Positions 1-23,674 of a stretch of 64,000 nucleotides of DNA are shown here, in pieces. The stretch is taken from assembly GCF_037023725.1 (NCBI RefSeq), contig NZ_CP146077.1, positions 2,703,001-2,767,000 on the forward strand, written 5' to 3'. Position numbers and translations under genes: made by a program. Each line of letters starts with the position of its first letter. Position 1 is the stretch's first letter. The notes below the pieces were generated by a model that worked only from the letters and a program-made list of their open reading frames with translations, had not been told where the DNA came from and searched no databases. The stretch is from Pseudomonas bubulae (lineage in GTDB: Bacteria; Pseudomonadota; Gammaproteobacteria; Pseudomonadales; Pseudomonadaceae).

Positions 1-1128
1 GGGCGGCATCTGGTGGCCTGGGGCGAGAGCCTGTTCTGGCCCAACATCAGCCAGGGCCAGGCACCGGTGGATTCGACCAAGTTCAACGTGCCCGGCACCG
101 AAGCCAAGGATGCCTACTTGCCGGTGGGGCAGATATCGGGCGCGTGGTCGGTGAATGAAGACCTGACCCTGCTCGGGTTCTACCAGTACAAGTGGGAAGA
201 AACCCAGCTCAACCCCGTGGGCGACTACTTTGGCAGCGATACCTTTGGCCCGGGGGCCGAGTTTTTCCGGCTCGCCCCGGGTATCGTCGACAACCTGCCC
301 AACGGGGCCGCAGTCGGCTACGCCGGCTCGGTCAAACCGGGCGACAGCGGCGAGTGGGGCCTGGGCACCCGATACCGGGTGACGCAAAACACCGAGGTCG
401 GCCTGTTTCATTACCGTTATCACGACCGCGTCCCGGCACTGTTCTTCGACTTTACCGGGCAGACCCATTACTCGTCCCTGAACAAAGTGGGTGGCAACGG
501 CAATGGCCCGAGTTACCAGCTGGGTTACTTTGACAACATCAAGCTCACCGGCATCAGTTTCACCACCAAAGCCGGTGATTCGGTGCAGTTCGCCGGTGAC
601 CTGAGCTATCGCGACGGCGCGGCGGTGTACCTGAGCAACGGTGCGCCGGCGCGGGGGCAGGTGTGGCAGGGAAACCTGAATGCCGTGTACATGATCGGGC
701 CGACGTTTATGGCGCAGCAGACCACCCTGATGACCGAGGTGGTGCACCAGCGCATCCAGGGCGTGGATGACCTGACCATTAGCGGTGGCGGGGCGGGCAC
801 GGACGGGACTTTCAATAAATATGTGTATGACGGTCAAACACGGGGTTCAAGCCTGTTGGGGATCGGCGCCTATTTCGATCACCCCAGCGTATTCAACGGC
901 TGGGACTTGACCACCAAGGCCACCTGGACCCAGAACATTGACGGCAGTGCCTATTCGGGGTTGGGCCGTGCTGAAAAGCGTCTGACAGTGGGTGGTGATT
1001 TCAAGTACCTGGGCAACTTTCAGCTGGGGCTGACTTATGTGGCGTATTTGAGCTCGGCCGATATTGCCCAGGGACGGACAATGGCGGATCGGGATTACCT
1101 GTCGTTCAATGGCAAGTACACCTTTTGA
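1..1128 (+). CDS. DUF1302-family outer-membrane protein, 5' end outside the window
   Basis: The reading frame is open from base 1 (reads GRHLVAWGES), so the true start lies upstream and about 375 C-terminal codons are seen. The sequence is rich in Gly, Tyr and alternating hydrophobic residues and ends in a terminal Phe (FNGKYTF), as expected of an outer-membrane beta-barrel. Phrases such as AWGESLFWPN and FGPGAEFFRL are what I recall of the DUF1302 family. In proteobacteria that family, usually with DUF1329, sits in clusters for steroids, terpenes and other hydrophobic compounds and is thought to help uptake. The neighbouring acyl-CoA genes fit this. The substrate is not known from sequence. 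Confidence 0.8.
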   Translation, partial: GRHLVAWGESLFWPNISQGQAPVDSTKFNVPGTEAKDAYLPVGQISGAWSVNEDLTLLGFYQYKWEETQLNPVGDYFGSDTFGPGAEFFRLAPGIVDNLPNGAAVGYAGSVKPGDSGEWGLGTRYRVTQNTEVGLFHYRYHDRVPALFFDFTGQTHYSSLNKVGGNGNGPSYQLGYFDNIKLTGISFTTKAGDSVQFAGDLSYRDGAAVYLSNGAPARGQVWQGNLNAVYMIGPTFMAQQTTLMTEVVHQRIQGVDDLTISGGGAGTDGTFNKYVYDGQTRGSSLLGIGAYFDHPSVFNGWDLTTKATWTQNIDGSAYSGLGRAEKRLTVGGDFKYLGNFQLGLTYVAYLSSADIAQGRTMADRDYLSFNGKYTF

Positions 1129-1200: not shown

Positions 1201-2385
1201 CTACCGGGCCTCCCGCGGCATCCCCAGCGCTCGTTCGGCAATGATATTGCGCTGAATCTCATTACTGCCGCCATAAAGGGTATCCGCACGGGTAAACAGA
1301 AACAGCGCCTGCAACCGTGTCAGCTCATAAGGCGCCCCGGCCAGCAACTCGGCCTCTGGCCCCAGTACATCCATCGCCAGCTTGCCCAGGGCCACATGCC
1401 AGGTCGACCAGGCCAGTTTGTAGATCGTCGCTTCAGGCCGCAGGCTGCCATCCTGTACCCCGGACAACATGCGCAACGAGTTGTAGCGCAACACCCGCAA
1501 GCCGCTCCAGGCCTGTGCGATGCGCTGGCGCAGCACCGGGTCTTGCGCCGCACCATTGGCCTTGGCAATACGCACCACTTCGTCCAACTCATTCTGAAAC
1601 TGCATTTGCTGGCCCAGGGTCGATACCCCGCGTTCAAACCCCAGCAGCGCCATGGCGATTTTCCAGCCATCACCCGGTTGGCCGATCAGGTTGTCTGCCG
1701 AAGCCCGCGCCTGATCAAAAAAAACCTCGTTGAATTCACTGGTACCGGTCAATTGCCGGATCGGCTGTACCCGTATACCCGGCTGGTCCATCTCCACCAG
1801 CAAGAACGACAGGCCGCGATGGCCAACACTTCCCGGCTCGGTACGTGCCAGCACAAAGCACCAGTCCGATTCATGAGCCAGTGAGGTCCAGACCTTTTGC
1901 CCGCTGATCAACCATTGCCCGCGGTCTTCATCGAAACTGGCGCGGGTCTTTATATTGGCCAGGTCCGACCCGGCACCCGGTTCGGAGTAGCCCTGACACC
2001 AAAAGTGCTGGCCCGCCAGTATCGGCGGCAAAAAACGTTGCTGCTGTTCCTGGCTGCCAAAGGCCGCAATCGTCGGCCCTACCAGCCCTTCGCCGATATG
2101 GCCCATACGTCCCGGGCCACCCGCCCTTGCGTACTCTTCGAAAAAGATCACTTGCTGGCTGATGCTCAAGCCACGGCCACCATGCTCGGTGGCCCAGCCA
2201 GCACCCACCCAGTGGCCTTGGGCCAAGACCTGTTCCCAGCGCTTGCGCAACCCGGGAGCAAAGTCCTCATCCCCCGGGCCACCGCGAAAGCGCAAAGCTG
2301 CAAAGTCACCGCTCAGGTGCTGCTGCATCCACTGCGCAACCTGTTGGCGAAACTGCTCATCTGCTGCGCTAAAACCGATATTCAT
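1201..2385 (-). CDS. Acyl-CoA dehydrogenase, NEIQRNIIAER-type subunit of a tandem pair
   Basis: Predicted flavoprotein oxidising an acyl-CoA to the 2,3-enoyl-CoA. The ATG at 2385 overlaps the stop of the upstream gene (ATGA) and has GGAG seven bases before it, so I prefer it to the GTG at 2391; this gives 394 residues. The central FAD-domain motif YSEPGAGSDLAN and the C-terminal GGSNEIQRNIIAERALGMP are present. The RxQFGxxIxSFQAxKH segment seen in its partner is absent. This complementary split resembles the heterotetrameric (alpha2beta2) dehydrogenases of steroid catabolism such as ChsE1-ChsE2 and FadE pairs. The acyl substrate is unknown. A heteromer with the product of 2382-3554 is inferred. 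Confidence 0.88.
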   Translation of the reverse strand: MNIGFSAADEQFRQQVAQWMQQHLSGDFAALRFRGGPGDEDFAPGLRKRWEQVLAQGHWVGAGWATEHGGRGLSISQQVIFFEEYARAGGPGRMGHIGEGLVGPTIAAFGSQEQQQRFLPPILAGQHFWCQGYSEPGAGSDLANIKTRASFDEDRGQWLISGQKVWTSLAHESDWCFVLARTEPGSVGHRGLSFLLVEMDQPGIRVQPIRQLTGTSEFNEVFFDQARASADNLIGQPGDGWKIAMALLGFERGVSTLGQQMQFQNELDEVVRIAKANGAAQDPVLRQRIAQAWSGLRVLRYNSLRMLSGVQDGSLRPEATIYKLAWSTWHVALGKLAMDVLGPEAELLAGAPYELTRLQALFLFTRADTLYGGSNEIQRNIIAERALGMPREAR

Positions 2386-3554
2386 GTGCACTCTCCGAAA
2401 ATCTGCCGGGCCAATTGCTCGCGATGAAACGCCGGGGTGCCGAGCATCTGCTCACTGGCCCGGGCTCGCTTGAAATACAGATGCGGGTCGTATTCCCAGG
2501 TAAAACCCACGCCACCGTGCAACTGGATGGACTCGGCGGCACACTGGAAAAAGCCTTCGCTGGCAAAAATTTTCGCAGTGGCCGCGGCTTCCCCAAGTTG
2601 CTCACGGATACCCGGATCACCATCGATATTCAGGCACTCGGCGGCAATGCAGGCAGCGTAGTAACTGGCCGAGCGCGCGCATTCGATGGCCAGCATCAAA
2701 TCGGCACAGCGGTGCTTGATGGCCTGGAAACTGGCGATAGTGCGACCAAATTGTTCGCGGCCGCTGATATAGGCCAGAGTGATGTCCAGCGACTGCTGTG
2801 CGCCACCGGTCTGCTCGGCCGCCAGGCCAACACAGGCTATCTGCAGCACATCGCGCAGCATCGGCCAGCCTTGCCCGGGTTCGCTGAGCAACTGATCGTC
2901 GTGGACGACTACATCGTTCAGGGTGATGGTAGCCAGGCGGCGGGTCTGATCCAGTGTCGGTTGCCACTGGCAAACAATCCCGGGAGTATCGGCAGGCAGT
3001 GCAAACAGGCGGATACCGGCTTCGCCGACGCTGCCCGGCGTGCGTGCGGCAATGATCAACAGCTGGCAATCGCTGCCATCGATCACATAGTGATACTCGC
3101 CATTGAGGCGATAACCCCCCGCATGGCTCTGCGCATACACCTGCACGGCGCTGTCGTCCCAGCGAGGCGCGCTGGTGTAGGCGAGGCTGGCGCGAATCTC
3201 ACCGGCGGCAATCAACGGCAGCCAGCGTTCCTTGAGTGCTTCATTGCGACTGAGCAGCAGGGCAGGGGTGGCCAGGCAGCAGGTTGCAAAAAATGGTGTG
3301 GGCAGCAGGCAGCGCCCGAGCTGTTCCTGGAGCAGGCTCACTTCGACAAAGCCCAGGCCAAGACCTCCATAGGCCTCGGGGATCGCCAGTGCGGGCCAAT
3401 ACAGCTCCCTGGCCATTCGCGCCCAGGTATCGGTGTCGTACCCCTGATCGCTGGTCATGGCCGTGCGCACCGCAGCGGAGCTGGCCACTTGGTTCAAAAA
3501 ACGTTCGGCGGATGCCTGAATCATTCGCTGTTCGTCTGTCAGGGCAAGCTCCAT
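2382..3554 (-). CDS. Acyl-CoA dehydrogenase, RxQFG-type subunit of a tandem pair
   Basis: About 390 residues beginning MELALTDEQRMIQAS. The start at 3554 is chosen because a GAGG lies six bases upstream and because family members begin here; an extended frame to 3617 has no such support. It carries SGREQFGRTIASFQAIKH and the C-terminal LHGGVGFTWEYD segment, but lacks the NEIQRNIIAER ending of the next gene, with which it overlaps by four bases. The two are probably translationally coupled and form one mixed enzyme. It is the first gene of a two-gene operon reading toward the DUF1302 gene. A perfect palindrome lies 73-84 bp upstream. Confidence 0.87.
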   Translation of the reverse strand: MELALTDEQRMIQASAERFLNQVASSAAVRTAMTSDQGYDTDTWARMARELYWPALAIPEAYGGLGLGFVEVSLLQEQLGRCLLPTPFFATCCLATPALLLSRNEALKERWLPLIAAGEIRASLAYTSAPRWDDSAVQVYAQSHAGGYRLNGEYHYVIDGSDCQLLIIAARTPGSVGEAGIRLFALPADTPGIVCQWQPTLDQTRRLATITLNDVVVHDDQLLSEPGQGWPMLRDVLQIACVGLAAEQTGGAQQSLDITLAYISGREQFGRTIASFQAIKHRCADLMLAIECARSASYYAACIAAECLNIDGDPGIREQLGEAAATAKIFASEGFFQCAAESIQLHGGVGFTWEYDPHLYFKRARASEQMLGTPAFHREQLARQIFGECT

Positions 3555-3626
3555 ATGGGCCTCGTCGTAAAAATACGGATCAAGGCGCCAGCATGAAAGC
3601 GCGCAGCACGGGTGCAATCCCTGAGC

Positions 3627-7591: not shown

Positions 7592-10107
7592 CCTGCTGCC
7601 TCAACATTATTAGCCGATTCTGCCAACGTGTCGGGATGGCAACGCAGGTCGCCGATTTCCAGCACATTGTTCTGCCTGAGGGTTTTGTTGATGTCGATAC
7701 GGAATTGGCAGAGTAATGCTTCGTCCTTGCGCACTTCCAGAGTGGGAGTGCCGGCGTTCATCTCCATTGAGAAGAAACCGTCCACTTCACTGATGCCGCG
7801 GCTGGTGGTGTTGATGATGTGATAACCCTTGAGCGGGTTACCGTCCGCGTCAATCAAGCGGCCAAGAACGGTGACGGTATTCACCACGTTGATCTTGCGG
7901 TAGCCCACGCCGCCCTTGTTCAGGTGATAACGGGCGCGAGGTGGCTGGATCGCAGCGGCGGGCACGTGGTTGCCCTGAAAGTCGAAACTGACTGAGCTGC
8001 TCTCGTACGCGGTGAGGGGAATATAGTTGCGGCCGGGGCGCAGCATGGTGCTGCCACCGCTGAGGTCATCGGCACGCAAGGCAATGTTGGCGATATCGGA
8101 CTCGACGTCGACGATCATTCCGGCCCCGCGCCCGGAGGGCTCACTGCTCATGGCCACGGTCAAGCCGCTCAGGGCGATGGTGCTGTCCAAGTTAAGGCCA
8201 CCGCTCAGGTAGCCGTTATAAGACGAGCGTTGCACAAAGGTATCGGCGCTGAGGCTGTCGGTCAGGAAGGTGGCCCGGCCATTGACGCCCACTCCGTAGG
8301 TATCGGTACTTGCGGTGGCAGCCACGCTTTGCAGGACGTGGCCTTCGATATTTTTGCTGTAACTGAGGGAGGCATTGTTGTCACGCTCACCGTCCCGGCC
8401 GGTGCGTGACCCCAGGCTGGCTGACCAGCGTTCACCCGGGCCGCCGAGGGCCAGGCTGATGCTCAGGTCGACCCCGCGATTGCGCTTGTTGCCGGAACTG
8501 AGGCTGCCGGGTCGATCAAAGACCGACAAACGCCAGTTACCGTCGCTGCCAAACAGGTGCGTGGGTTGCGCCCAGCCCACGTCCAGGCCGTAGCCGCGGC
8601 TATAGCCATTGCTGTGGGAGAGGCGGGCACTCAAGGTGCTTTGCAGGCCGAAGCGATGGTTCAGGGACAGGGCGGTAGTGCTGGTCTGGCCCACATAGCT
8701 GGACTTTGTGCGCAGGCGCGTGCCGTCCGGCAGGGTTTCGTAGGTGTTACGGGTGTCGAGCCAGCTGCGGTTGTGGTTGAACACGACATTGCCGAGGCCG
8801 TAGTGGTACTGGCCGTTAAAGTCGACACCGGTGCCGTAGCTTTGAGTCTTGTAAAGATTGGCATAAAAGGTGAGATTGCTGGCCAGCGTCCAGTCAATGG
8901 CGGTGCCCCATTGCATCCTGTTTTTTACCTGGCGCGCAGACAGACCCAGGATGGCGCGCGGGTGCAGCAGGTAATTGAGCGAGGCGCCGGCGGTCATGTC
9001 GCCGGTGGCCTGGTCGTCCCAGTTGCTCAGCAGTTTGCTTTCGCGTCCGGCGAACAGGTTATAGCGCCATGGGTCGTCGTAGTTGCGCCAGTTGGACGGT
9101 TTATAGATCAGCTCCGAAGACGTGCTGCTAACTCGGCCGTCTTCGACCAGGCGAACCTCGACTTCGTAAATACCGCTGGGCAAGGGGCGGGTATCGAGGC
9201 TCTGCAAACCGGCGGCAACCAGCTGGGAATTGATCAACAGGCCGTTGCGGTAGATTTGTGCCGTTGCCGGACGACTGGCGGTGACATACACCGGGTATAC
9301 GCCGGGTTTGGCTTGATCGATGACCAGGCTGTCGGAACTGCCATACATGATGCCCACTGTGGTATCGGGGCTGGCGCCAAAAGTGCGAATTTGCCGGGTC
9401 AAACCTTCGGAGCCTGGAGTGAAATAGCCCAGGCGCAGAAATGTACCTTCCAGTTCACGCTGGGTGTGGGCTTCATAGACAGCATGTTTGAGCTGACTTT
9501 GGTCCGGACCATCCATGCGTGTGAGTTGCAGGTTGAGCGTTTGGCTCCAGTGGCCGATGCTGCCGCTGGCCTCCAGGCCATAACGACCGTCAACTTGCTC
9601 TCGCTGGCCGGCGGTGAGGTTTAGCTGATTGCGCACAATCAAACCGCCGCTGCCGCCGCTGGGCAGTTCGTGATAGCGGCTCTTCTGATAATCCTGTTCC
9701 GCCCTGGCGGTCAGCAACGAGACCATGGAGTTTTCCAGGTTGTAATGAACCGCCATTAACTGTTCGGGGCATTTGCCAGTGCAGGCTCCCAGTTGCACTC
9801 CTTGCTGGAGAAACTCCGACCAGGTGTCGCGCTCACTGGCCGGAATCTGGCTGGCGTTGAAGTCGGTGAACTCAAGGAGGGTCAGACGATCATCGCGGGT
9901 CAGTACGACCATGGCTTCACCCACCAGTTGCGAGTTGCGCTCGACCTGAACGGCCAGCGGTACATCGAAAAGGTGCTCTTCGAAGTCAGCCGGCAAGCCT
10001 TTGGCCTGGGCAAGCAAACTTCGGGGTGTACTGACTTCTGCGGCTGCCATTGATGCTGCAGGGAACAACAAGGCCAGCGTCACCGCGATGCGAGTCATCG
10101 GGAACAT
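7588..10107 (-). CDS. Outer-membrane usher, CooC/CblC/TcfC type
   Basis: An 839-residue protein with signal peptide (ALLFPAASMAAAEV). Size and order of parts match alpha-fimbrial ushers: an N-terminal domain, a long Tyr- and Ser-rich barrel region (for example GYSRGYGLDVGWAQ), a TcfC-like segment near residues 655-760 ending in RYHLNKGGVGYRKINV, and a C-terminal carboxypeptidase-regulatory-like fold (GRLIDADGNPLKGYHI). It forms the pore and platform for export of pilins and tips. It is preceded by the major pilin and a strong intergenic hairpin, and overlaps the tip gene by four bases. Confidence 0.9.
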   Translation of the reverse strand: MFPMTRIAVTLALLFPAASMAAAEVSTPRSLLAQAKGLPADFEEHLFDVPLAVQVERNSQLVGEAMVVLTRDDRLTLLEFTDFNASQIPASERDTWSEFLQQGVQLGACTGKCPEQLMAVHYNLENSMVSLLTARAEQDYQKSRYHELPSGGSGGLIVRNQLNLTAGQREQVDGRYGLEASGSIGHWSQTLNLQLTRMDGPDQSQLKHAVYEAHTQRELEGTFLRLGYFTPGSEGLTRQIRTFGASPDTTVGIMYGSSDSLVIDQAKPGVYPVYVTASRPATAQIYRNGLLINSQLVAAGLQSLDTRPLPSGIYEVEVRLVEDGRVSSTSSELIYKPSNWRNYDDPWRYNLFAGRESKLLSNWDDQATGDMTAGASLNYLLHPRAILGLSARQVKNRMQWGTAIDWTLASNLTFYANLYKTQSYGTGVDFNGQYHYGLGNVVFNHNRSWLDTRNTYETLPDGTRLRTKSSYVGQTSTTALSLNHRFGLQSTLSARLSHSNGYSRGYGLDVGWAQPTHLFGSDGNWRLSVFDRPGSLSSGNKRNRGVDLSISLALGGPGERWSASLGSRTGRDGERDNNASLSYSKNIEGHVLQSVAATASTDTYGVGVNGRATFLTDSLSADTFVQRSSYNGYLSGGLNLDSTIALSGLTVAMSSEPSGRGAGMIVDVESDIANIALRADDLSGGSTMLRPGRNYIPLTAYESSSVSFDFQGNHVPAAAIQPPRARYHLNKGGVGYRKINVVNTVTVLGRLIDADGNPLKGYHIINTTSRGISEVDGFFSMEMNAGTPTLEVRKDEALLCQFRIDINKTLRQNNVLEIGDLRCHPDTLAESANNVEAAG

Positions 10108-10147
10108 AAACGCAATACTCTAATAACGGACAGTCAATCCAGAAGAG

Positions 10148-10174
10148 GCGCCCGGTCGAAAACCGGCCGGGCGC
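10148..10174. terminator. Intercistronic hairpin between major pilin and usher
   Basis: GCGCCCGG at 10148-10155 pairs perfectly with CCGGGCGC at 10167-10174 around an 11-base loop. It lies in the 101-bp gap after the major pilin gene on the minus strand. There is no T-run, so partial termination or mRNA protection is more likely than full termination. Such hairpins usually let the pilin be made in excess over the usher. Confidence 0.6.
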
Positions 10175-10208
10175 GGGTATCGCCAGATGAATCAACGGTG
10201 TTGGCAGA

Positions 10209-10703
10209 TCAGGGGGTGGGTGGCGTGCTGTCGAACATCACGGTAAATGCGGTACTGAAATTGCCAGAGGCACCTGTTGGTATGGCGCCAGCAGATACCT
10301 CCAGCTCTGCAGTACCGCCTGCGGCGGAGGCGGGGGCGGTTGCCACCTCCAGGGCTGCAGCCGTAAGGGTCACACCGTTGAATTTGGTGGTCAGAGGGAT
10401 GTTGTGTGCGGTGTTACCGTTGAACAGCGCCCGTGGCCCGCCATCGATATACGCGCGCAATGCACCGCCTGTGCTCTTGTAGGTGAAGTTTTCACGAAGG
10501 CTGTTGATTTTGTTTTGGCCGATGTCATAGCCCATTACTTCAGCCTGACCGAAGGTCGGGCTAGAGGCTTGTGCATAGAAAGCAGTGCTTGGAACAGTGG
10601 CGCTGATATTAATCTGGGTACTTGTACTGTCGGCAGCCCATGCACTGGAAACACCGAACACCATTACTGCCGCAGCAACCAGAGCGGTTTTGTTTATTAA
10701 CAT
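10209..10703 (-). CDS. CS1-type fimbrial major pilin
   Basis: A 164-residue subunit beginning with signal peptide MLINKTALVAAAVMVFGVSSAWA. The mature protein starts near STQINISATVPST, has few charged residues and ends FTVMFDSTPPTP, as in CooA/CblA major subunits. AGG lies eight bases before the ATG. It is the first gene of the operon, followed by a hairpin, which fits high expression of the shaft protein. It lacks cysteine, as is usual for alpha-fimbrial major pilins and unlike most type 1 pilins. I see no sigma-70 promoter that I would defend; TATTAT occurs about 18 bp upstream of the start on the minus strand. Confidence 0.86.
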   Translation of the reverse strand: MLINKTALVAAAVMVFGVSSAWAADSTSTQINISATVPSTAFYAQASSPTFGQAEVMGYDIGQNKINSLRENFTYKSTGGALRAYIDGGPRALFNGNTAHNIPLTTKFNGVTLTAAALEVATAPASAAGGTAELEVSAGAIPTGASGNFSTAFTVMFDSTPPTP

Positions 10704-11307
10704 TTTGTTTACCTGTTGTATAATAGGTGTAAAGGAACATGCATTTGTGGAAACAGAGTGTTTTCCAATCGGCCGAGGATGATTAAGTTTGAATTCCGTC
10801 CAGATATCTGGCGTTTGTCATCAGGCTGGAATGGGCTTTCGACCCCCGGCTGGTCAAGCTGGATCAGAATATTAGAATTTCAGGATGGTTAAAGTAGCCA
10901 AGTGCGAACGTTTAAGTGGCTTTGGTCTTGCGATCTTGCGGCTTTCTTCCTTTGATAGTTGAGTGAATAATCCTGCTTGTATAAGTTCCTCCTGTAAGTG
11001 CAGGCTATGGCAGCAAGTTGTATTGTTTGAGCTTTGTTATTTTCTGCTGGGGCGGCTGATCTGTTTTTATAAGAGAGTGCTGTGTTGTTTGAGTGAAATA
11101 TCCAAGTAAAACGTAAGTTCATTAGTTCTTATGGCGTAGGGTGTGATTAATTAATGATGATTGATCGCTGCCGCGGGCATTTACTTGTGGCTATACGGGC
11201 GTGCGCCTGTGGCTCTGTGTCTTATGTTTAGTCTCAACGGACGATGATCCGCCTCGCGCGCCTTCCCATACTGCTCCCATGGTTTTTTTGCCAATCCAGG
11301 AGCACAT
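10704..11307. other. 604-bp A+T-rich intergenic region upstream of the fimbrial and EchA20-like genes
   Basis: This gap separates the divergent fimbrial operon and the beta-oxidation operon and is more A+T-rich (above all 10870-11160) than the genes to its right. It must hold both promoters. A 77-codon minus frame (10889-11122) starts ATG but has no clear ribosome-binding site and no recognisable features, so I do not call it. No IS ends, direct repeats or integrase remnants are seen. Confidence 0.6.
10748..10811. promoter_or_regulatory. Two dyads upstream of the fimbrial operon
   Basis: TGGAAAC (10748-10754) faces GTTTTCCA (10760-10767), an imperfect inverted repeat, and CCAGATATCTGG (10800-10811) is a perfect 12-bp palindrome. 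They lie about 45-110 bp before the major pilin start and are candidate operators. Confidence 0.35.
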
Positions 11308-12072
11308 GTGAACAGCGCAGCCCATACCGCATTTCAGACCAGTATCGACGCGGGCGTCGCTGAACTGGTGATCGACCGGCCACCGGTCAATGCCCTCGAC
11401 AGCCAGGAATGGCTCGATCTGGCACGTACTCTCGAAGCATTGGGGCAAGACCCGCAAGTGCGAGTCATCGTGATCCGCTCCGAGGGCCGTGGCTTCTGCG
11501 CCGGGGTCGATATCAAGGAGCTGGACGCCCACCCCGAACGTATCGTGACCGTCAATGCCGGCAACTACGCCACCTTCAAGGCCATTCACCGCAATCCGGT
11601 GCCGGTGATTGTTGCCGTGCATGGCTATGTGCTGGGTGGCGGGATCGGTATTACCGGCGCTGCCGATATTGTCGTTGCCTCCGATTGCGCCAGTTTTGCC
11701 TTACCCGAAGTGGATCGCGGCGCCATGGGCGGCGGGGCGCATTTGCAGCGTCTGTTCCCGGTGCAGAAAGTCCGTTATCTGTTTTTGACCGGCGACAAGA
11801 TCAGTGCCGTTGACGCCCAGCAATACGGCTTTATCGAGCGCGTGGTGCCCCGTGAGCAATTGCGTGAAACCGCGCTGCAAATTGCCCGCAAGATCGCCAG
11901 CAAAAGCCCGGACATGATCCGCATCGCCAAGGAAGCCCTGAACGGTATCGAAGACGGCAACCTGGAAGACAAATACCGCTGGGAACAGGGGTTCACGCTG
12001 CAGGCCTACAACAGCACGGACTCCGCCGAAACCCGCCGCGCATTCGTTGAAAAACGCGACGCCAACTTCTGA
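11308..12072 (+). CDS. Crotonase-family enoyl-CoA hydratase/hydrolase, EchA20-like
   Basis: A 254-residue crotonase. The GTG start at 11308 is forced because the ATG just before runs into TGA; AGGAG lies five bases upstream. Oxyanion-hole segments are GRGFCAGVDIKE and VLGGGIGITGAADIV. From memory it resembles M. tuberculosis EchA20 (Rv3550) along its length, including LPEVDRGAMGGGAHLQRL, the YRWEQGFTLQ stretch and the AKEAL segment. EchA20 opens the D ring of a steroid-derived CoA ester. If the similarity holds, this enzyme may be a ring-cleaving hydrolase and not a plain hydratase. It is the first gene of an eight-gene operon and ends ten bases before the next start. Confidence 0.85.
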   Translation: MNSAAHTAFQTSIDAGVAELVIDRPPVNALDSQEWLDLARTLEALGQDPQVRVIVIRSEGRGFCAGVDIKELDAHPERIVTVNAGNYATFKAIHRNPVPVIVAVHGYVLGGGIGITGAADIVVASDCASFALPEVDRGAMGGGAHLQRLFPVQKVRYLFLTGDKISAVDAQQYGFIERVVPREQLRETALQIARKIASKSPDMIRIAKEALNGIEDGNLEDKYRWEQGFTLQAYNSTDSAETRRAFVEKRDANF

Positions 12073-12082
12073 GGAGCTGACG

Positions 12083-13237
12083 ATGGATCTGACCTACTCC
12101 CCCAAACAAAAGGCTTTTCGCCAGGAGGTGCGCCAATGGCTGGCGGACAACCTGCCGACCACGCCGCTGGCCAGCTACGATACCCGCGAGGGCTTCGAGC
12201 AACACCGCCAGTGGGAAGCCAAATTATTCGAAAACCGTCTGTCGATGGTCATGTGGCCCACCGAGCTGGGCGGGCGCGGCTGCGACCTGATCGAGTGGCT
12301 GATTTTCGAAGAGGAATATTACGGCGCCGGCGGGCCGATGCGGGTCAATCAGAACGGCCAGCTGTTGCTCGGCCCGACGCTGATGGAGTTCGGCACCGAG
12401 GCGCAAAAACTGCGTTTCCTGCCGCGCATGGCCGCCAGTACCGACATGTGGGCCCAGGGCTGGTCCGAACCGAACGCAGGTTCCGACATGGCCGCTATCA
12501 CCAGCAAGGCCACCCGCGATGGCGACAGCTACGTGCTCAACGGCCAGAAAACCTGGTCCACACGAGCGATTTTTGCCGACTGGCTGTTCGGCCTGTTCCG
12601 TAGCGATCCGTCGTCCAGCCGCCATCACGGGCTGTCCTTCGTGATGGTGCCGCTCAATGCACCGGGGGTCACCGTACGCCCGATCAAGGCCCTGAACGGC
12701 AAGGATGCGTTTGCCGAAGTGTTCTTTGATGACGTGCGCATCCCGCTGGAAAACCGTATTGGCGATGAAGGCCAGGGCTGGCATGTGGCAATGGCCACTG
12801 CCGGCTTCGAGCGAGGTCTGCTGCTGCGTTCCCCGGCCCGTTTTCAATACACGGCGCGCAAATTGGTGGAGCTGTACCAGGCCAACCGCGCCAGCGCCGA
12901 TCGTGATCCGAGCCTTGGCGAGGCGGTGTGCAAGGCCTGGTCGGACGCCCAGGCTTACGCCCTGTCTGCGTACCACACCGTGGGCCGCCTGAGCCGCGGG
13001 GCACAGATTGGCGCCGAGTCGAGCACCAACAAAATATTCTGGTCGGAGCTGGATCTGCGCATGCACGAAACCGCCATGCGCATTCTCGGCGCCAGTGGCG
13101 AGCTGACCGGTCAATCGGAGGGCGGCTACAGCTGGCTGGACGGCTTTTTGTTCGCCCAGGCCGGGCCCATTTACGCCGGCACCAACGAGATCCAGCGCAA
13201 CATTATCGCCGAGCGCATGCTCGGCCTGCCGAAGTGA
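12083..13237 (+). CDS. Acyl-CoA dehydrogenase, NEIQRNIIAER-type subunit
   Basis: A 384-residue flavoprotein starting MDLTYSPKQKAFRQ. ATG at 12083 has GAGGAG seven bases upstream; the in-frame ATG at 12047 lies inside the upstream gene. The FAD motif WSEPNAGSDMAAI and the ending AGTNEIQRNIIAERMLGLP are present, while the RxQFG segment is missing. It is followed eight bases later by a second dehydrogenase having the opposite pattern, so the two probably form one heteromeric enzyme, as FadE pairs do in steroid catabolism. It resembles the product of 1201-2385 in design, which suggests two dehydrogenation steps in the same pathway. Confidence 0.88.
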   Translation: MDLTYSPKQKAFRQEVRQWLADNLPTTPLASYDTREGFEQHRQWEAKLFENRLSMVMWPTELGGRGCDLIEWLIFEEEYYGAGGPMRVNQNGQLLLGPTLMEFGTEAQKLRFLPRMAASTDMWAQGWSEPNAGSDMAAITSKATRDGDSYVLNGQKTWSTRAIFADWLFGLFRSDPSSSRHHGLSFVMVPLNAPGVTVRPIKALNGKDAFAEVFFDDVRIPLENRIGDEGQGWHVAMATAGFERGLLLRSPARFQYTARKLVELYQANRASADRDPSLGEAVCKAWSDAQAYALSAYHTVGRLSRGAQIGAESSTNKIFWSELDLRMHETAMRILGASGELTGQSEGGYSWLDGFLFAQAGPIYAGTNEIQRNIIAERMLGLPK

Positions 13238-13245
13238 GGCCGGGC

Positions 13246-14304
13246 ATGGACTTTACCTTTACCGAAGACCAGATCTCTTTTCGCGAGGCCATCAGCCGTT
13301 TTCTGATGACCGAAGCGGCCCCCGAAATGCTCCGTGAAATCTGGGAAACCGATGTCGGTCGCTCCCCGGATTTGCGCAACAAGATCGCCGAGCAGGGCCT
13401 GACCGCATTGTCGATCCCCGAGGCTTTCGGTGGCCTGGGCATGGACGATGTGGCCTGGGCCCTGATGACCCAGGAACTGGGTTACTACGCCATTCCTGAT
13501 TCCCTGGGTGATACCGCTTATGTGGCCAGTGCGCTGATCGCCGGGCTGGATGACGGCGTAGCCCGTCGCGGCGAATGGCTGGAACGCATTGCCGACGGCA
13601 GTTTGCGGGTGGCCATCGGGCACCCGGTCAATCCGCTGGTGGCCGATGCCGCCCACGCTGACTTGCTGCTGCTGGCCCATGGCGATGAAGTCCACGCCGT
13701 GCCGCGTAGCCAGGTGGATGTGCAAAATCACGCCAGTATCGATGCCTCTCGGCGCCTGGCGCAGGTCAGTTGGCAACCCGGCGCAGCCACCCTGGTGGCG
13801 CAGGGCGAACAGGGCCGCCAGCTGTGGGCGCAAACCCTTGATCGTGGCGCGCTGTCGGTAGCCGGGCAGTTGCTCGGGCTGGCTCAGCGCATGCTGGATT
13901 TATCGGTGGACTACGCCGCGCAGCGCAAACAATTCGGTAAGCCCATCGGCAGTTTTCAGGCAGTCAAGCATCATCTGGCCGACGTGGCTACTGCGCTGGA
14001 GTTCGCCAAACCGGTGCTGTACCGCGCCGCTTACGCGCTGGCACACAACGAACCGAATGCCGCCGTGTGGGTGTCCCAGGCGCGTCTGGCCAGTTGCGAA
14101 GCCAGCTGGCTGGCGGCCCGCCACGGCATCCAGGTGCATGGGGCGATGGGTTACACCTGGGAAGTCGACCTGCAAATGTTCATGAAGCGCGCCTGGGCAC
14201 TGGACAGTGCCTGGGGCGACCGTGCGCTGCACAAGGCCCGTGTGGCCGAATATGTATTGAGTGGCGCGGCGCCTCTGGGCTGCGGTCACACCTTCGAGGA
14301 TTGA
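13246..14304 (+). CDS. Acyl-CoA dehydrogenase, RxQFG-type subunit
   Basis: A 352-residue protein starting MDFTFTEDQISFREA; the ATG at 13246 is eight bases after the previous stop and in-frame codons upstream belong to the overlapping gene. It has QRKQFGKPIGSFQAVKHHLAD and VHGAMGYTWEVDLQMFMKRA, matching the FAD- and acyl-binding C-terminal domain. It lacks the NEIQRNIIAER terminus of its partner. It is short for an acyl-CoA dehydrogenase, as is common for the second chain of the heteromeric steroid-type enzymes. Its own activity alone is doubtful; with the product of 12083-13237 it should oxidise a ring- or side-chain acyl-CoA. Confidence 0.86.
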   Translation: MDFTFTEDQISFREAISRFLMTEAAPEMLREIWETDVGRSPDLRNKIAEQGLTALSIPEAFGGLGMDDVAWALMTQELGYYAIPDSLGDTAYVASALIAGLDDGVARRGEWLERIADGSLRVAIGHPVNPLVADAAHADLLLLAHGDEVHAVPRSQVDVQNHASIDASRRLAQVSWQPGAATLVAQGEQGRQLWAQTLDRGALSVAGQLLGLAQRMLDLSVDYAAQRKQFGKPIGSFQAVKHHLADVATALEFAKPVLYRAAYALAHNEPNAAVWVSQARLASCEASWLAARHGIQVHGAMGYTWEVDLQMFMKRAWALDSAWGDRALHKARVAEYVLSGAAPLGCGHTFED

Positions 14305-14307
14305 CCG

Positions 14308-15459
14308 ATGCCCCAAGCCTATATTGTTGATGCATTGCGCAGCCCCACCGGCAAGCGCAAGGGTGGCCTGGCCCATGTCCATGCCATCGACCTCGGCGCC
14401 CATGTGCTCAAGGCACTGGTGGAGCGCAACGCAATTCCGGCCGACGAATATGACGACGTGATTTTTGGGTGTGTCGACACCATCGGCTCCCAGGCCGGTG
14501 ATATCGCCCGCACCAGCTGGCTGGCCGCCGGTTTGCCGCTGAACGTGCCGGGCACCACCATCGATCGCCAGTGCGGTTCGTCACAACAGGCGCTGCACTT
14601 CGCCGCGCAGGCGGTGATGAGTGGCACCCAGGATGTGATTGCCGTGGGTGGTGTGCAAACCATGACCCAGATCCCTATTTCCTCGGCGATGCTGGCCGGG
14701 CAGCCACTGGGCTTTGCCGACCCGTTCTCCGGCAGCAAGGGCTGGCAAGCGCGCTTTGGCAAACAGCCGGTCAACCAGTTCTACGCCGCTCAGCGTATCG
14801 CCGACCACTGGAACATCAGCCGCCAGGACATGGAAGCCTATGCCCTGGAGAGCCATCGCCGGGCGCTGGAGGCCATGGCCGCGGGCCGTTTCGTCAACGA
14901 AATCGTGCCCTGTGAAGGGGTAAGGGACGACGAAACACCGCGCCAAACCAGCCTGGCCAAAATGGCCGAACTGGAGCCGGTGTTTGCCGAGTTTGCGTCG
15001 ATCACCGCTGCGGTATCCAGCCAGACCTGCGATGCCTCGGCCGCCTTGCTGGTGGTCTCCGAGGCGGCGCTCAAACGCTACAACCTCACGCCACGGGCGC
15101 GGATCCATCACCTGTCGGTGTTGGGCGACGACCCGATCTGGCACCTCAGGGCCCCGATTGCCGCCACCCGTGCCGCACTGAAAAAGGCTGGCATGGGCAT
15201 GCAGGACATTGACCTTGTTGAAATCAACGAAGCCTTCGCCTCGGTGGTGATGGCCTGGGCCAAGGAGCTGGATTTCGACCCGGCCAGGACCAACGCCAAC
15301 GGCGGTGCAATTGCTCTCGGCCATCCGTTGGGGGCAAGCGGTGCACGGTTGATGACCGGCCTGCTCAACCAGCTTGAGCACAGCGGTGGCCGCTACGGTT
15401 TGCAGACCATGTGCGAAGGCGGCGGTCAAGCCAACGTGACGATTATTGAACGCCTCTAG
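14308..15459 (+). CDS. Thiolase, FadA6-like
   Basis: A 383-residue acetyl-CoA acyltransferase that splits a 3-oxoacyl-CoA with CoA. The acyl-accepting Cys is C89 in TIDRQCGSSQQAL; the His loop is NGGAIALGHPLGASG and the second Cys lies in TMCEGGGQANVTIIERL. The stretches DVIFGCVDTIGSQAGDIAR and MTQIPISSAM agree with my memory of mycobacterial FadA6 (Rv3556c), a thiolase of steroid C/D-ring breakdown. It is three bases after the preceding gene. General fatty-acid or 3-oxoadipyl thiolase use cannot be ruled out, but the phrase-level match favours the ring pathway. Confidence 0.88.
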   Translation: MPQAYIVDALRSPTGKRKGGLAHVHAIDLGAHVLKALVERNAIPADEYDDVIFGCVDTIGSQAGDIARTSWLAAGLPLNVPGTTIDRQCGSSQQALHFAAQAVMSGTQDVIAVGGVQTMTQIPISSAMLAGQPLGFADPFSGSKGWQARFGKQPVNQFYAAQRIADHWNISRQDMEAYALESHRRALEAMAAGRFVNEIVPCEGVRDDETPRQTSLAKMAELEPVFAEFASITAAVSSQTCDASAALLVVSEAALKRYNLTPRARIHHLSVLGDDPIWHLRAPIAATRAALKKAGMGMQDIDLVEINEAFASVVMAWAKELDFDPARTNANGGAIALGHPLGASGARLMTGLLNQLEHSGGRYGLQTMCEGGGQANVTIIERL

Positions 15460-15469
15460 GAGCAACGAC

Positions 15470-16348
15470 ATGGCAATTTGTGCAGAACGTACCGTCATCA
15501 TTACCGGCGCGGGCGGCGGTTTGGGCCGCGCTTACGCGCTGGCGTTCGCCGGGCAGGGCGCCAATGTGGTGGTCAACGATATTCGTCGCGAAGCCGCCGA
15601 AGAGGTCGTGGCAGAAATCCTCCAGGCCGGTGGGCAGGCCATTGCCAATGCCGATGACATCACTGCCCTGGCCACGGCACAGCACATCGTCGACGCCGCC
15701 CTGGCCGCGTTTGGCGAAGTGCATGTGCTGGTCAACAACGCCGGAATCCTGCGTGACCGCATGTTTATCAGCCTCGCTGAAGAGGACTGGGATGCGGTCA
15801 TGCGTGTGCATCTCAAGGGGCATTTTTGCCTGGCCAATATCCTTGGCAAGCGCTGGCGCGACCTGGCCAAGGCCGGCCGGCCGGTGGCGGCACGGATCAT
15901 CAACACCAGTTCCGGCGCGGGCTTGCAGGGTTCGGTGGGGCAGTCCAACTACAGCGCAGCCAAAGGCGGGATTGCCGCGCTGACCCTGGTGCAGGCAGCC
16001 GAGCTGGGGCGCTACGGCGTGACGGCCAATGCCCTGGCGCCGGCGGCGCGGACCTCGATGACCGAAAGCGCGATGCCGGACATGGTGAAAAAACCTGAAG
16101 ACGGTGGCTTTGATTCATGGGCACCGGAAAACGTCGCGCCGCTGGTGGTATGGCTGGGCAGCGAACTGTCGGGGGATGTTACCGGGCAGATCATCGAAAG
16201 CCAGGGTGGGCGATTGTCCCTGGGCGATGGCTGGCGCACCGGGGTGACCCGCGACAAGGGCGCGCAATGGCAACCCGAAGAAGTGGGGGTTGCCCTGGGC
16301 CAGATTCTGGCCGAAGCGCCTGCACCGCAGCGGGTGTGGGGTAGCTGA
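15470..16348 (+). CDS. SDR 3-hydroxyacyl-CoA dehydrogenase, HSD17B4/ChsB1-like
   Basis: A 292-residue short-chain dehydrogenase. The ATG at 15470 has AGGAG eight bases upstream and is ten bases after the thiolase. Motifs: TGAGGGLGRAYAL for cofactor binding, NNAGILRDRMF, catalytic Ser in INTSSGAGLQG and YSAAKGG for Tyr and Lys. The N-terminal cofactor region plus NDIRR and the AARTSMT segment recall the dehydrogenase domain of multifunctional enzyme 2 and mycobacterial ChsB1. It likely oxidises the 3-hydroxyacyl-CoA made by the MaoC hydratase or the crotonase of this operon. It ends before a hairpin that may lower expression of the last three genes. Confidence 0.85.
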   Translation: MAICAERTVIITGAGGGLGRAYALAFAGQGANVVVNDIRREAAEEVVAEILQAGGQAIANADDITALATAQHIVDAALAAFGEVHVLVNNAGILRDRMFISLAEEDWDAVMRVHLKGHFCLANILGKRWRDLAKAGRPVAARIINTSSGAGLQGSVGQSNYSAAKGGIAALTLVQAAELGRYGVTANALAPAARTSMTESAMPDMVKKPEDGGFDSWAPENVAPLVVWLGSELSGDVTGQIIESQGGRLSLGDGWRTGVTRDKGAQWQPEEVGVALGQILAEAPAPQRVWGS

Positions 16349-16357
16349 TACCGCTGG

Positions 16358-16407
16358 CCCTCACCCCAACCCCTCCCTTTGGAAGAGGGCCAGGGTGAGG
16401 GGCTTTT
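16358..16407. terminator. Intra-operon hairpin of the ccctcac repeat family, with T-run
   Basis: CCCTCACCC (16358-16366) pairs with GGGTGAGGG (16393-16401) and is followed by gcTTTTg on the plus strand. It lies in the 88-bp gap between two SDR genes of the same operon. It could end or attenuate transcription there; no new promoter is obvious after it. Confidence 0.5.
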
Positions 16408-16436
16408 GATTTGCCGCTTAACAAGAGAATTCAACC

Positions 16437-17222
16437 ATGAGACAAGCACCTCCCTATGTCCCCGGCCACCAGTTACTGGCTGGCAAGTCGATTTTGATCA
16501 CTGCCGCAGCCGGCGCCGGTATCGGTTATGCCGCGGCCAAACGCTGCGCGGAAGAGGGCTGTCGCGCCCTGATGATTTCCGATATCCACCCGCGTCGTCT
16601 CGAAGAGGCAGTCGAGCGGCTAAAGGCCGAAACCGGCTTGCAGGCGGTCTACGGGCAGCTGTGCAACGTCACCGTCGAAGCCGACGTGCAAGCCCTGGTC
16701 GCCGCCGCTGAGGATGCGCTGGGCGGTGTCGATGTGCTGATCAACAACGCCGGGCTTGGCGGTCAGGTACGCCTGACCGAAATGACCGATGAGCAGTGGT
16801 CGTCGGTACTGGATATCACCCTGACCGGCACCATGCGCATGACTCGCGCCATGCTCCCGCATATGGAGCGTCGTGGTGCCGGGGCCATCGTCAACAACGC
16901 CTCGGTACTGGGCTGGCGCGCGCAAAAGGAGCAGGCCCACTACGCTGCGGCCAAGGCCGGGGTCATGGCCCTGACCCGCTGCAGCGCCCTGGAAGCCGCC
17001 GAAAACGGCGTGCGGATCAACGCTGTGGCGCCGTCGATCGCCCTGCACGACTTTCTGAAAAAAGCCGCCAGCAGCGAATTGCTCGACCAGCTCACCAGCC
17101 GCGAAGCCTTTGGCCGCGCCGCCGAAGTGTGGGAAGTGGCCAATGTCATGGTGTTTCTGGCCAGTGACTATGCCTCGTACATGGTCGGCGAAGTGCTGCC
17201 CGTCAGCTCGCAACACGCGTGA
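16437..17222 (+). CDS. SDR oxidoreductase, IpdF-like
   Basis: A 261-residue short-chain dehydrogenase with an unusual cofactor loop, ITAAAGAGIGYAAAKRC, in place of TGxxxGIG. Other motifs: NNAGLGGQVRLTEM, NNASVLGWRAQ with the catalytic Ser, and HYAAAKAGVMALTRCSALEA with Tyr and Lys. From memory these and the ending with SSQHA closely follow mycobacterial IpdF (Rv3559c), which oxidises a hydroxyl on the indane nucleus during steroid C/D-ring breakdown. This is the most telling gene for pathway assignment. A different ring alcohol as substrate is possible. The ATG follows a weak AAGAGAA; the stop is ten bases before the MaoC start. Confidence 0.83.
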   Translation: MRQAPPYVPGHQLLAGKSILITAAAGAGIGYAAAKRCAEEGCRALMISDIHPRRLEEAVERLKAETGLQAVYGQLCNVTVEADVQALVAAAEDALGGVDVLINNAGLGGQVRLTEMTDEQWSSVLDITLTGTMRMTRAMLPHMERRGAGAIVNNASVLGWRAQKEQAHYAAAKAGVMALTRCSALEAAENGVRINAVAPSIALHDFLKKAASSELLDQLTSREAFGRAAEVWEVANVMVFLASDYASYMVGEVLPVSSQHA

Positions 17223-17232
17223 GGAGCAGATT

Positions 17233-17703
17233 ATGAGCACAGTTTTCAGCAGCACCGGGCAGTTGCTGGCGGCCGAGGGCATGGATCTGGGGCGCACAGA
17301 CTGGCTGCTGCTGACCCAGGAACGGATCAACCTGTTTGCCGAAGCCACGGGCGATCACCAGTGGATCCATGTCGACCCTCAGCGCGCCGCCACCGGGCCA
17401 TTTGGCGCCTGCATCGCCCATGGTTACCTGACCCTGGCCCTGGCCAATCTGTTTATGCCGCAACTGATGCAGTTCGAGAACCTGGCCATGGGCGTCAACT
17501 ACGGCAGTGACCGACTGCGCTTCCCTGCGCCGGTCAAGGTCGGTTCGCGGATTCGCGGCCATGGCCAGTTGGTACGGGTCGAGATGCAGGGCCAGGCCGT
17601 GCAGGCTGTAGTGCGCATGAGCGTCGAAATCGAGGGCAGCGAACGCCCCGGCTGCGTGGTGGACACCATCAGCCGCTACACCTTCAACCCCCTTGAACAG
17701 TGA
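17233..17703 (+). CDS. MaoC-like (R)-enoyl-CoA hydratase
   Basis: A 156-residue single hot-dog domain. ATG at 17233 with GAGGAG seven bases upstream. The hydratase-2 signature is seen as FAEATGDHQWIHVDP, with the catalytic Asp and His, followed by GACIAHGYLTLAL. It should hydrate a 2-enoyl-CoA to the (R)-3-hydroxyacyl-CoA for the ChsB1-like SDR upstream. In steroid degraders MaoC hydratases take part in side-chain removal. Ten bases separate it from the IpdF-like gene and nine from the thiolase, so they are one transcription unit. Confidence 0.87.
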   Translation: MSTVFSSTGQLLAAEGMDLGRTDWLLLTQERINLFAEATGDHQWIHVDPQRAATGPFGACIAHGYLTLALANLFMPQLMQFENLAMGVNYGSDRLRFPAPVKVGSRIRGHGQLVRVEMQGQAVQAVVRMSVEIEGSERPGCVVDTISRYTFNPLEQ

Positions 17704-17712
17704 GCCTTGAAC

Positions 17713-18921
17713 ATGAATTTGAATGACGTTGTGATCGTATCCACCGCCCGCACTGCCTTGACCAAATCCTTTCGTGGCTCGTTCAACGATACCGAGGCGC
17801 CTGTGCTGGGCGGTCACGTGGTGCGTGCCGTGGTCGAGCGCGCGGGTATCGAGCCGGGTTCGGTGGAAGACGTGATCATGGGTGCCGCCGCCCAGCAGGG
17901 CACTCAGAGTTACAACATCGGCCGCCTGTGTGCGTACACCGGCGGTTTGCCCGATACTGTGCCGGGCATGGCGCTCGATCGCATGTGCGCCTCGGGCCTG
18001 ATGAGTATCGGCGTGGCGGCCAATGGCATCATGACCGGCGAAATGAAGATTGCCGTGGCCGGTGGCGTGGAGTCATTGTCGCTGACCCAGAACAAGTACA
18101 AAAACACCTACCGCGCCCAGTCCGAGGCCGTGCTTGAGTGCATGCCGACGGCTTATATTCCGATGCTCGAAACCGCGGAAATCGTGTCGCGGCGCTACAA
18201 CATCAGCCGCGAGGTACAGGATCAGTATGCGTTGCAGAGCCAGCAACGTACTGCCGCCGCCCAGGCTGAGGGCCTGTTTGCCGATGAGATCGTACCCTTG
18301 GCGGCGCGCAAGCTGTGCTTTGACAAGGAAGGCAAGCCCGCCGGTCATCAGGACGTGATCGCGGACCGTGACGAGTGCAACCGTCCCTCCACCACCCTTG
18401 AAGATCTGTCGAGTCTCAAGCCGGTGTGGAAAGACGGCAAGTGGATCGAACAGGGTGAGTTCATTACGGCAGGCAATGCCTCGCAGTTTTCCGATGGTGC
18501 CGCTGCGGTCCTGCTGATGAGCCGTGGCGAAGCCAGACAGCGTGGCATCGAAGCCCTGGGCGTGTATCGCGGGATTGCCGTGAGTGGTTGTGCACCGGAG
18601 GAAATGGGCATTGGTCCGGTGTATGCGATTCCCAAGTTGCTCAAGCGTTTTGGTCTGAGTGTTGCGGATATTGACCTGTGGGAAATCAACGAAGCGTTCG
18701 CCTGCCAGGTGGTGTATTGCCGTGACTTTCTGCAGATTCCCAATGACCGACTGAACGTCAACGGCGGGGCGATTGCCATTGGTCATCCGTTCGGCATGTC
18801 GGGTGCGCGGATGGTGGGGCACAGTCTGCTCGAGGGGCGTCGTCGTGGTGCGCGGTTTGTGGTGGTTGCCATGTGCATTGGCGGCGGCATGGGGGCAGCG
18901 GGGTTGTTTGAGCTGAGCTGA
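17713..18921 (+). CDS. Acetyl-CoA C-acyltransferase (thiolase)
   Basis: A 402-residue thiolase. The ATG at 17713 is used; an in-frame TTG at 17707 is possible since the Shine-Dalgarno is weak. Acyl-accepting C92 lies in [13 protein letters not shown]; the His loop is [17 protein letters not shown] and the second Cys is in [14 protein letters not shown]. It is clearly different from the FadA6-like thiolase at 14308, so the operon can cleave two kinds of 3-oxoacyl-CoA. It is the last gene of the catabolic operon. A degenerate REP half (near 18950-18962) follows it. Confidence 0.9.
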
Positions 18922-22142: not shown

Positions 22143-22655
22143 GTGTCGAGTCCTGTGGATCCCCAAAGGCTGCTGGCCAGTCTATATCACGACAATCACG
22201 CGTGGCTGCGCGGCTGGTTGTCGCGACAGGTACGATGCCCGCAGGATGCGGCCGATCTGGCCCAGGACACATTTTTGCGCGCTTGGGATGCCCGCCAACT
22301 GGAACGTATCCAGGAGCCTCGGGCTTACCTGAGTACCGTTGCCCGGCGCTTGCTCTGCTCACTGTGGCGGCGGCGCAAGCTTGAGCAAGCCTATCTCGAC
22401 CAACTGGCCGAGCTGCCTCTGGCCTACGCACCTTCTGCAGAAGACATTGCCCTGGTCCGTGAGGCGATCGAAGCCATTGATTGCCTGCTCGAAGGTTTGC
22501 CATCGCGGGTCAAGCGCGCCTTTTTGCTCAATCGTCTTGAAGGTATGCCCCAGCAGGCCATTGCCGAGCAACTGGGCGTATCCCTGGCCACCGTTGAGCG
22601 CGACTTGCGCCGCGCTTTTGTTCATTGCCTGTCGCAAACGGCGGAGAGCCCATGA
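22143..22655 (+). CDS. ECF sigma factor, FecI type
   Basis: A 170-residue sigma-70-family factor. Region 2 is AADLAQDTFLRAWDA with YLSTVARRLL; region 4 is LEGLPSRVKRAFLLNRLEGMPQQAIAEQLGVSLATVERDL. The start is GTG at 22143, with no strong Shine-Dalgarno, so low basal translation is likely. Its stop overlaps the ATG of the FecR gene (ATGA). It should direct transcription of the TonB receptor at 23730 when the receptor signals ligand binding. A candidate Fur box lies just upstream. Confidence 0.9.
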   Translation: MSSPVDPQRLLASLYHDNHAWLRGWLSRQVRCPQDAADLAQDTFLRAWDARQLERIQEPRAYLSTVARRLLCSLWRRRKLEQAYLDQLAELPLAYAPSAEDIALVREAIEAIDCLLEGLPSRVKRAFLLNRLEGMPQQAIAEQLGVSLATVERDLRRAFVHCLSQTAESP

Positions 22656-23629: not shown

Positions 23630-23674
23630 AAACCAATGAATGCGAATTAATTGCAGATAAGGTGAGGGGAAAGG

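Follow-up and report, generated by a model that had tools for sequence, protein, structure and literature searches.

How a pseudomonad comes to carry what resembles the actinobacterial pathway for the C and D rings of steroids, and where the missing steps of that pathway are encoded, is the question raised by an operon of eight genes in Pseudomonas bubulae (positions 11308–18921 of the window, i.e., of the whole 64,000-nucleotide stretch analysed; contig NZ_CP146077.1, positions 2,703,001 to 2,767,000). The eight genes make up the 3′ half of the operon with which proteobacteria degrade the steroid C/D-ring intermediate methylhexahydroindanedione propanoate (HIP). The enzymes are ordinary; what stands out is the regulation and the evolution, namely a conserved site marking steroid genes and the splitting of the operon after it had gained a second copy of this site. 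It is highly probable that these genes form the distal part of the HIP operon in a member of the P. fragi group that degrades steroids, probably bile acids, and that both halves of the split operon are switched on via the shared site.

All eight plus-strand open reading frames (ORFs) of the interval are present, nearly gap-free, and the composition given in an earlier note on this DNA (a crotonase, two thiolases, short-chain dehydrogenases/reductases [SDRs], a dehydrogenase pair, and a MaoC hydratase) is borne out. Four of the proteins exceed the curated cut-offs of NCBIfam: the crotonase of the EchA20/ScdY type (ring D hydrolase; 11308..12072) with PRK07938 (391.5 vs. 260), the thiolase of the FadA6/ScdF type (14308..15459) with PRK07801 (680.6 vs. 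591), the SDR in the position of ScdE (15470..16348, with an inferred start in an ORF that opens at 15446) with PRK07791 (451.7 vs. 373), and the SDR of the IpdF/ScdG type (16437..17222) with PRK07831 (449.5 vs. 336), whose best PDB match is 3o38 (299 bits). The others were assigned by position. The first acyl-CoA dehydrogenase subunit (FadE31/ScdM1 position; 12083..13237, start codon inferred from the translation) reaches 225 against the cut-off of 624 for pimC_large; the second (FadE32/ScdM2 position; 13246..14304, start inferred) has IpdE2 (NF050027) as its best family but falls far short of the cut-off (143 vs. 450). The MaoC-like hydratase (ScdD position; 17233..17703, start inferred) has weak family matches and stays under the cut-off of its best NCBIfam family, and the second thiolase (ORF33/ScdJ position; 17707..18921) scores 533.8 against 615 for its best family, PRK07108. 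The names EchA20, FadA6, and IpdF derive from gene order and the literature and are absent from the titles of the matched families. PDB searches returned no entry titled FadA6 or IpdF and none titled EchA20 among the 60 of 205 matches listed, and ordinary acyl-CoA dehydrogenases were the only PDB matches of the dehydrogenase subunit. The SDR at 15446 had been called ChsB1-like, but it is closer to 3qlj (306 bits) than to 7lg9 (199 bits), which we take to be ChsB1, and is better described by its ScdE position. All eight proteins are 98–100% identical to those of P. bubulae, the nearest named relative among the named loci (the best 80 of 561).

The identity of the operon follows from its gene order. 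For strain Chol1, the published table gives the sequence HsaD, SteA, SteB, Hsh1, Sor1, StdA2, Sal1, Shy1, HsaC, IpdA, IpdB, ScdN, and IpdC by locus tag, followed by one unlisted tag (EchA20 “unknown”), two acyl-CoA dehydrogenases, FadA6, ScdE, IpdF, ScdD, and a thiolase; a separate group comprises an amidase, HsaA, KstD, KshB, and StdA3/FadD3 (PMC8399759 Table 1). In Comamonas testosteroni, echA20 (1280) is tabulated between ipdC (1279) and fadE31 (1281) (PMC5380842 Table 1). The order in the window agrees with both tables, which identifies the operon as the known one and confirms the steroid C/D-ring type suspected in the earlier note.

The partner genes are located elsewhere in the same genome. 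A search for CoA transferases yielded eight matches, one of them at C2:3009562. The stretch around this match (L008) encodes, in this order, an HsaD-like hydrolase, a major facilitator superfamily (MFS) protein, two SDRs, a SnoaL-type protein, an old yellow enzyme, an acyl-CoA ligase, a metallo-β-lactamase protein, a DUF1302 protein, a lipid-transfer-type thiolase, a ChsH2/MaoC protein, an HsaC-like dioxygenase, IpdA, IpdB, a crotonase, and a protein resembling nitronate monooxygenase/FabK; the last two are, by position, ScdN and IpdC. The Chol1 table runs through the order of L008 and then that of the window operon, and its second group has the order of stretch L129. IpdA and IpdB match the chains of 6co6/6con, presumably IpdAB, with 282 and 185 bits, compared to 92 and 67 bits for glutaconate CoA transferase. 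A ligase of the FadD3 family (NF005801; 715.9 vs. a cut-off of 657) is encoded together with HsaA- and KstD-like genes at C2:3.548–3.556 Mb. The hsaC–ipdA–ipdB–scdN–ipdC block lies ~290 kb from the window operon and hence not directly upstream of echA20. The earlier note had suggested looking for DUF1329, ipdAB, ipdC, and fadD3 left of base 1, and had considered a new route if IpdAB, IpdC, and FadD3 were not encoded nearby. DUF1329 is indeed there; ipdAB, ipdC, and fadD3 are found ~290 kb away or further. Because IpdAB and FadD3 are encoded in the genome, the route is not new, and a new ring-degradation route is ruled out.

Genes for the A and B rings bear on the substrate. Two KshA-like genes (C2 3.27 and 3.67 Mb) each match the C-terminal domain of KshA (PF19298) with 228 bits (cut-off 23.3), and HsaA-, HsaC-, HsaD-, KstD-, and FadD3-like genes are likewise all present and follow the order of Chol1. 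In another genome (G128), the operon, FadD3, KshA, and homologs of HsaA, HsaC, HsaD, and KstD form one cluster of ~62 kb. Both observations speak against a non-steroid fused-ring substrate, such as a terpenoid or an indane, that is degraded with borrowed enzymes of the steroid type. Points in favor of such a substrate, and thus against the assignment to steroids, are that the substrate is read from the genes, that similar loci occur also in Thauera terpenica, and that several A/B-ring proteins remain under the curated cut-offs (HsaA-like, 379 vs. 450; HsaC-like, 284 vs. 450; HsaD-like, 186 vs. 400; KstD-like, 574 vs. 788), with the respective models being the best or among the best families for these proteins; IpdC matches only the FabK model (188 vs. 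453), with a fitting position. On balance, a non-steroid substrate is very unlikely. Among the steroids, bile acids are the best guess. The steA/steB/sor1/hsh1 block has been called characteristic of bile-acid-degrading Proteobacteria in the literature consulted; since the block in L008 was assigned by gene order and superfamily, the substrate remains a guess.

Among the named loci, the separation of the two halves is confined to one group of Pseudomonas. Among 199 sampled Pseudomonas genomes, in which the best eight or nine candidates per genome were scored for the counts of thiolases and LuxR-type proteins, the thiolase (E ≤ 1e-120) is present in 28 and IpdA (E ≤ 1e-60) in 27, with both in the same 27. 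The thiolase-positive exception without IpdA (G051) is listed at 9% contamination; its FadA6-like thiolase (L110) and that of G151 (L111) are 66–68% identical, have other gene neighbors with no ipdAB among them, and were excluded. The 80 named loci include 75 with a usable echA20 match (five were left out). In 67 of these, ipdC is located directly upstream of echA20, with a gap of 0–178 bp (measured between tblastn matches) save in strain HK44. The eight loci where ipdC is not next to echA20 all belong to the P. fragi/P. lundensis group and are all the loci of that group in the set (8/8). HK44, the closest outgroup, is unsplit and has an ipdC–echA20 gap of ~730 bp with a promoter inside.

In P. 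bubulae, ipdA is ~294 kb from the thiolase; in the complete chromosome of P. fragi D12 the distance is 331 kb, and in the other six named genomes of the group the two genes are on different contigs. The latter would be expected if the split were an assembly artefact. However, other genes precede echA20 in all eight loci, and the halves lie on one contig or chromosome, ~0.30 and 0.36 Mb apart, in the single-contig genomes G198 and G132 as well as ~0.33 Mb apart in P. fragi D12, so an artefact was rejected as practically negligible. Since further cluster arrangements exist in Pseudomonas, the halves might also differ in origin, either because one came from a different lineage or because two full copies suffered complementary losses. 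Unrooted trees were built for the same 23 taxa from five proteins of the 5′ half and from four of the 3′ half; HK44 joins the fragi clade in both, with support of 100 and 96. At the thresholds used, each genome of the fragi group has a single ipdA match and a single match of the echA20-linked thiolase. Different origins of the halves are therefore rejected as very improbable, though less so than an artefact. To the right of ipdC, near the operon break, there is an RHS-like fragment (L031:51–2351) and an ORF of 1698 amino acids (L031:7041–12137).

Both halves are preceded by the same conserved site. Upstream of echA20, a predicted operator TAGTCTCAACGGACGATG (11229..11246, plus strand) is identical in 18 of 18 positions to the copy before hsaC in the same genome, and a predicted −10 element, CATACT (11267..11272, plus strand), follows 20 nt downstream. 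The promoter in the ipdC–echA20 gap of HK44 has the form TAGTCC-N4-GGACGATG, again followed by a −10 element at a distance of 20 nt, and TTAGTC-N5-GGACGATG upstream of echA20 is common to the eight loci of the fragi group, the own genome, and HK44. Outside the split group, TAGTCTCAACGGACGATG or a close form is present upstream of hsaC in all 63 loci that have a usable hsaC match and at least 150 bp upstream; compared to TAGTCCNNNNGGACGATG, 61 of these sites have one mismatch and 2 have two. The carriers include Thauera, Aromatoleum, Halopseudomonas, Marinobacterium, Halomonas, and Colwellia.

The copy number of the site sets ipdA-positive pseudomonads apart from the others. Every one of the 27 genomes with ipdA has 3–8 exact copies, and the other 172 have 0–2 (zero in 121, one in 48, and two in 3), so that at least three copies or at most two split all 199 sampled genomes. 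Many of the exact matches in ipdA-negative genomes are TAGTCGTTGTGGACGATG, which occurs once per genome (e.g., G037, G162, and G105) and is probably an unrelated conserved sequence. Where sites of other genomes were read, they lay directly upstream of a recognized steroid gene in 5/5 cases in G128 (six sites in total), 4/5 in G046, and 2/3 in G027 (six in total). In the own genome, TAGTCNNNNNGGACGATG at ≤1 mismatch yields 19 sites (7 for a reversed control), of which 11 lie before or beside steroid genes: echA20, a steA-like gene, MFS/hsaD, hsaC, DUF1329, a crotonase gene from the side-chain cluster, hsaA, kshA (two sites), a YCF48–RND unit, and, at 3559450, an aldehyde dehydrogenase gene. Several findings limit the view that the site marks the pathway. 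The site at 3559450 faces away from the adjoining aldehyde dehydrogenase gene, towards another gene; the other 8 of the 19 lie away from known steroid genes, set against 7 sites in the reversed control; the RND–DUF1329 stretch left of the window (L004) has no site at ≤2 mismatches; and no site is listed before the FadE30/33-like pair. The last two results imply that not every suspected gene has a site. Among the 80 named loci, 19 one-mismatch matches have no gene of the reference set downstream. One-mismatch copies at G000:C2:599768 and 5046710, outside known steroid loci, are possible regulon members or chance matches. No published operator or regulator for this site surfaced in the literature searched, as far as its text was accessible.

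The spacing of the predicted promoters is fixed. Over the 11 own sites, −10 likeness peaks at a single offset, 20 nt past the element, with a mean of 3.64 of 6 (next best offset, 2.55; maximum of 2000 shuffles, 2.73) and individual scores of 4 at nine sites, 3 at one, and 1 at one; the consensus of the hsaC promoters has CACAAT at the same −10 place. A sigma-70 scan detected 3 sites, compared to 2.6 expected, and none before echA20. Assuming a transcription start ~7 nt past the −10 element, the near-palindrome is predicted to be centered near −42; class II activators bind around that position. In five species (HK44, P. fragi, G000, P. saxonica, and P. lundensis), the promoters of echA20 and hsaC agree in 16–18 of 18 operator positions and 20–23 of 32 positions beyond, and both have a −10 element of the CATACT type. 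This likeness fits a duplication of the hsaC promoter into the ipdC–echA20 junction before the break, but it may instead reflect constraint or convergence.

A candidate regulator is encoded among the genes for ring degradation. A protein of 424 amino acids (L131:1487–2761) encoded near kshA has a LuxR-type helix-turn-helix (HTH) domain (PF00196; 27.8 vs. a cut-off of 23.5). Its paralog directly beside the second kshA is 70% identical and has no PF00196 match at 1e-5. The region at C2:3.27 Mb (L134:5321–9724) holds a second set of acyl-CoA ligase, LuxR-type, and KshA-like genes, with a site before kshA, and in Halopseudomonas formosensis a LuxR-type gene (L156:11227–12492) separates fadA6 from scdE, and a further copy of the site comes after it. 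The LuxR-type protein (E ≤ 1e-80) is present in exactly the 27 of 199 genomes that are ipdA-positive. Weighing against its general role, 12 of the 27 matches are only 39–43% identical; one stop was counted in these, which is the natural end in the two that were read (G046 and G027). According to the available text of the respective papers, the induction of the tesB–tesR genes in C. testosteroni requires TesR (PMC6895838), and the loss of one of two TeiR-like genes in Chol1 delays growth on cholate (PMC8399759).

Most likely, judging from sequence and gene context, the site is bound by a TeiR-like LuxR regulator encoded beside kshA. A different regulator of an otherwise genuine site is less likely but a serious contender. 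It would be compatible with the computational nature of the LuxR assignment, which stems from sequence matches, with the failure of one of the two paralogs to match the LuxR HTH model at the chosen threshold, and with the other steroid-gene regulators described in C. testosteroni. A TeiR-like regulator is favored by the exact co-occurrence of the LuxR-type protein with ipdA, the location of its gene beside kshA or inside the cluster, the position of the site where class II activators bind, and the requirement for TesR in C. testosteroni. If the LuxR-type proteins are indeed TeiR-like, a remark in the literature consulted that tesR-like genes occur in C. testosteroni only would not fit.

In the proposed pathway, the enzymes of the window operon would act together with IpdAB, IpdC, and FadD3 encoded elsewhere. 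According to the literature, the FadE30/33-like pair, ScdD, ScdE, and a thiolase would shorten the side chain of HIP, IpdF and IpdC would produce the ring enone, EchA20 would open ring D, IpdAB would open ring C, and a thiolase with FadE31/32 would continue by β-oxidation. The sources disagree on one step: FadA6 is placed after the opening of ring C in actinobacteria, and ScdF, its counterpart in C. testosteroni, is assigned to side-chain thiolysis. Before the split, an hsaC-like promoter would have arrived between ipdC and echA20, as in the unsplit HK44, and a subsequent rearrangement would have moved the halves ~0.3 Mb apart, with each half activated from TAGTCC-N4-GGACGATG, centered near −42, by a TeiR-like LuxR regulator. 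The chances appear evenly balanced that TeiR-like LuxR activators use the site as their operator, so that it defines a single regulon for steroid catabolism across gamma- and betaproteobacteria, functionally a counterpart of KstR/KstR2, and that the duplication of the hsaC promoter came first and allowed the P. fragi group to split its HIP operon while retaining control. Under such a regulon, the pathway can fragment, since a copy of the site accompanies each separate transcription unit.

The locus documents an operon before and after splitting, the outgroup HK44 being unsplit but already equipped with the internal promoter, and the site offers a direct experimental target and a means of finding further genes of the pathway. 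While KstR and KstR2 are known in Actinobacteria, a 2021 review states, in the part available, that the control of bile-acid degradation in Proteobacteria is largely unknown (PMC8399759). The genes further predict that bacteria of the P. fragi group can use bile acids. The group is known from meat and milk. A literature search that paired “Pseudomonas fragi” with “bile acid degradation” found nothing, and among the titles listed for “Pseudomonas fragi” and “steroid”, the subjects were other matters.

The neighborhood of the operon contains further candidates. The DUF1302 barrel reported to adjoin it is real, but only the 3′ part of the gene (1..1128, plus strand) lies in the window; it begins at C2:2702551 and may function in steroid transport. 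Upstream of it are an MMPL/RND gene and the DUF1329 gene (L004). On the minus strand, family scans identified acyl-CoA dehydrogenases resembling FadE30/ScdC2 (1201..2391), with homologs in G042 and Halopseudomonas located between the scdE and ipdF homologs, and FadE33/ScdC1 (2382..3617), supported likewise by the positions of homologs in relatives. A perfect palindrome, CGGACTAGTCCG, is present upstream of the latter at 3627–3638; across the 80 named loci, the core of this palindrome, GGACTAGTCC, is present 12 times. The region between this pair and the operon (3654–10703) reads, from its translations, as a chaperone–usher fimbrial cluster. In the fragi group, usher genes adjoin echA20 in five of the eight loci and the FadE30/33-like pair in the other three. 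ORFs at 22143–26165 seem to encode a sigma factor, a FecR-like protein, and a TonB-dependent receptor, with no apparent relation to the operon.

Among known systems, the closest is that of P. stutzeri (Stutzerimonas) Chol1, where the tabulated HIP genes (C211_RS11215–RS11275) are the same, in the same order and with the same upstream neighbors (PMC8399759 Table 1). Chol1 has one run of locus tags, whereas here the operon is cut between ipdC and echA20, the FadE30/33-like genes have moved, and echA20 has its own promoter; the comparison is one of tabulated tags. In the scd/tes cluster of C. testosteroni, as described in the accessible parts of PMC5380842 and PMC13101464, FadE33/FadE30 (scdC1C2) lie inside the cluster; here, they are located outside the operon. 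The enzymes are homologous, by family and by published table, to those of the KstR2 regulon of Mycobacterium and Rhodococcus. The label “KstR2-type” in the earlier note holds for the enzymes but not for their control: homologs of KstR1 and KstR2 are stated to be absent from bile-acid-degrading Proteobacteria in the consulted part of the review (PMC8399759), though no search aimed at KstR2 was made in the present genome. The KstR2 regulon is governed by a TetR repressor, whereas the operon of P. bubulae has another site and probably a LuxR-type activator. Class II promoters of the LuxR/lux-box type likewise have a near-palindromic site, placed about as far from the −10 element; the sequence of the site differs here, and the candidate regulator has ~420 amino acids, of which only the C-terminal HTH is recognized.

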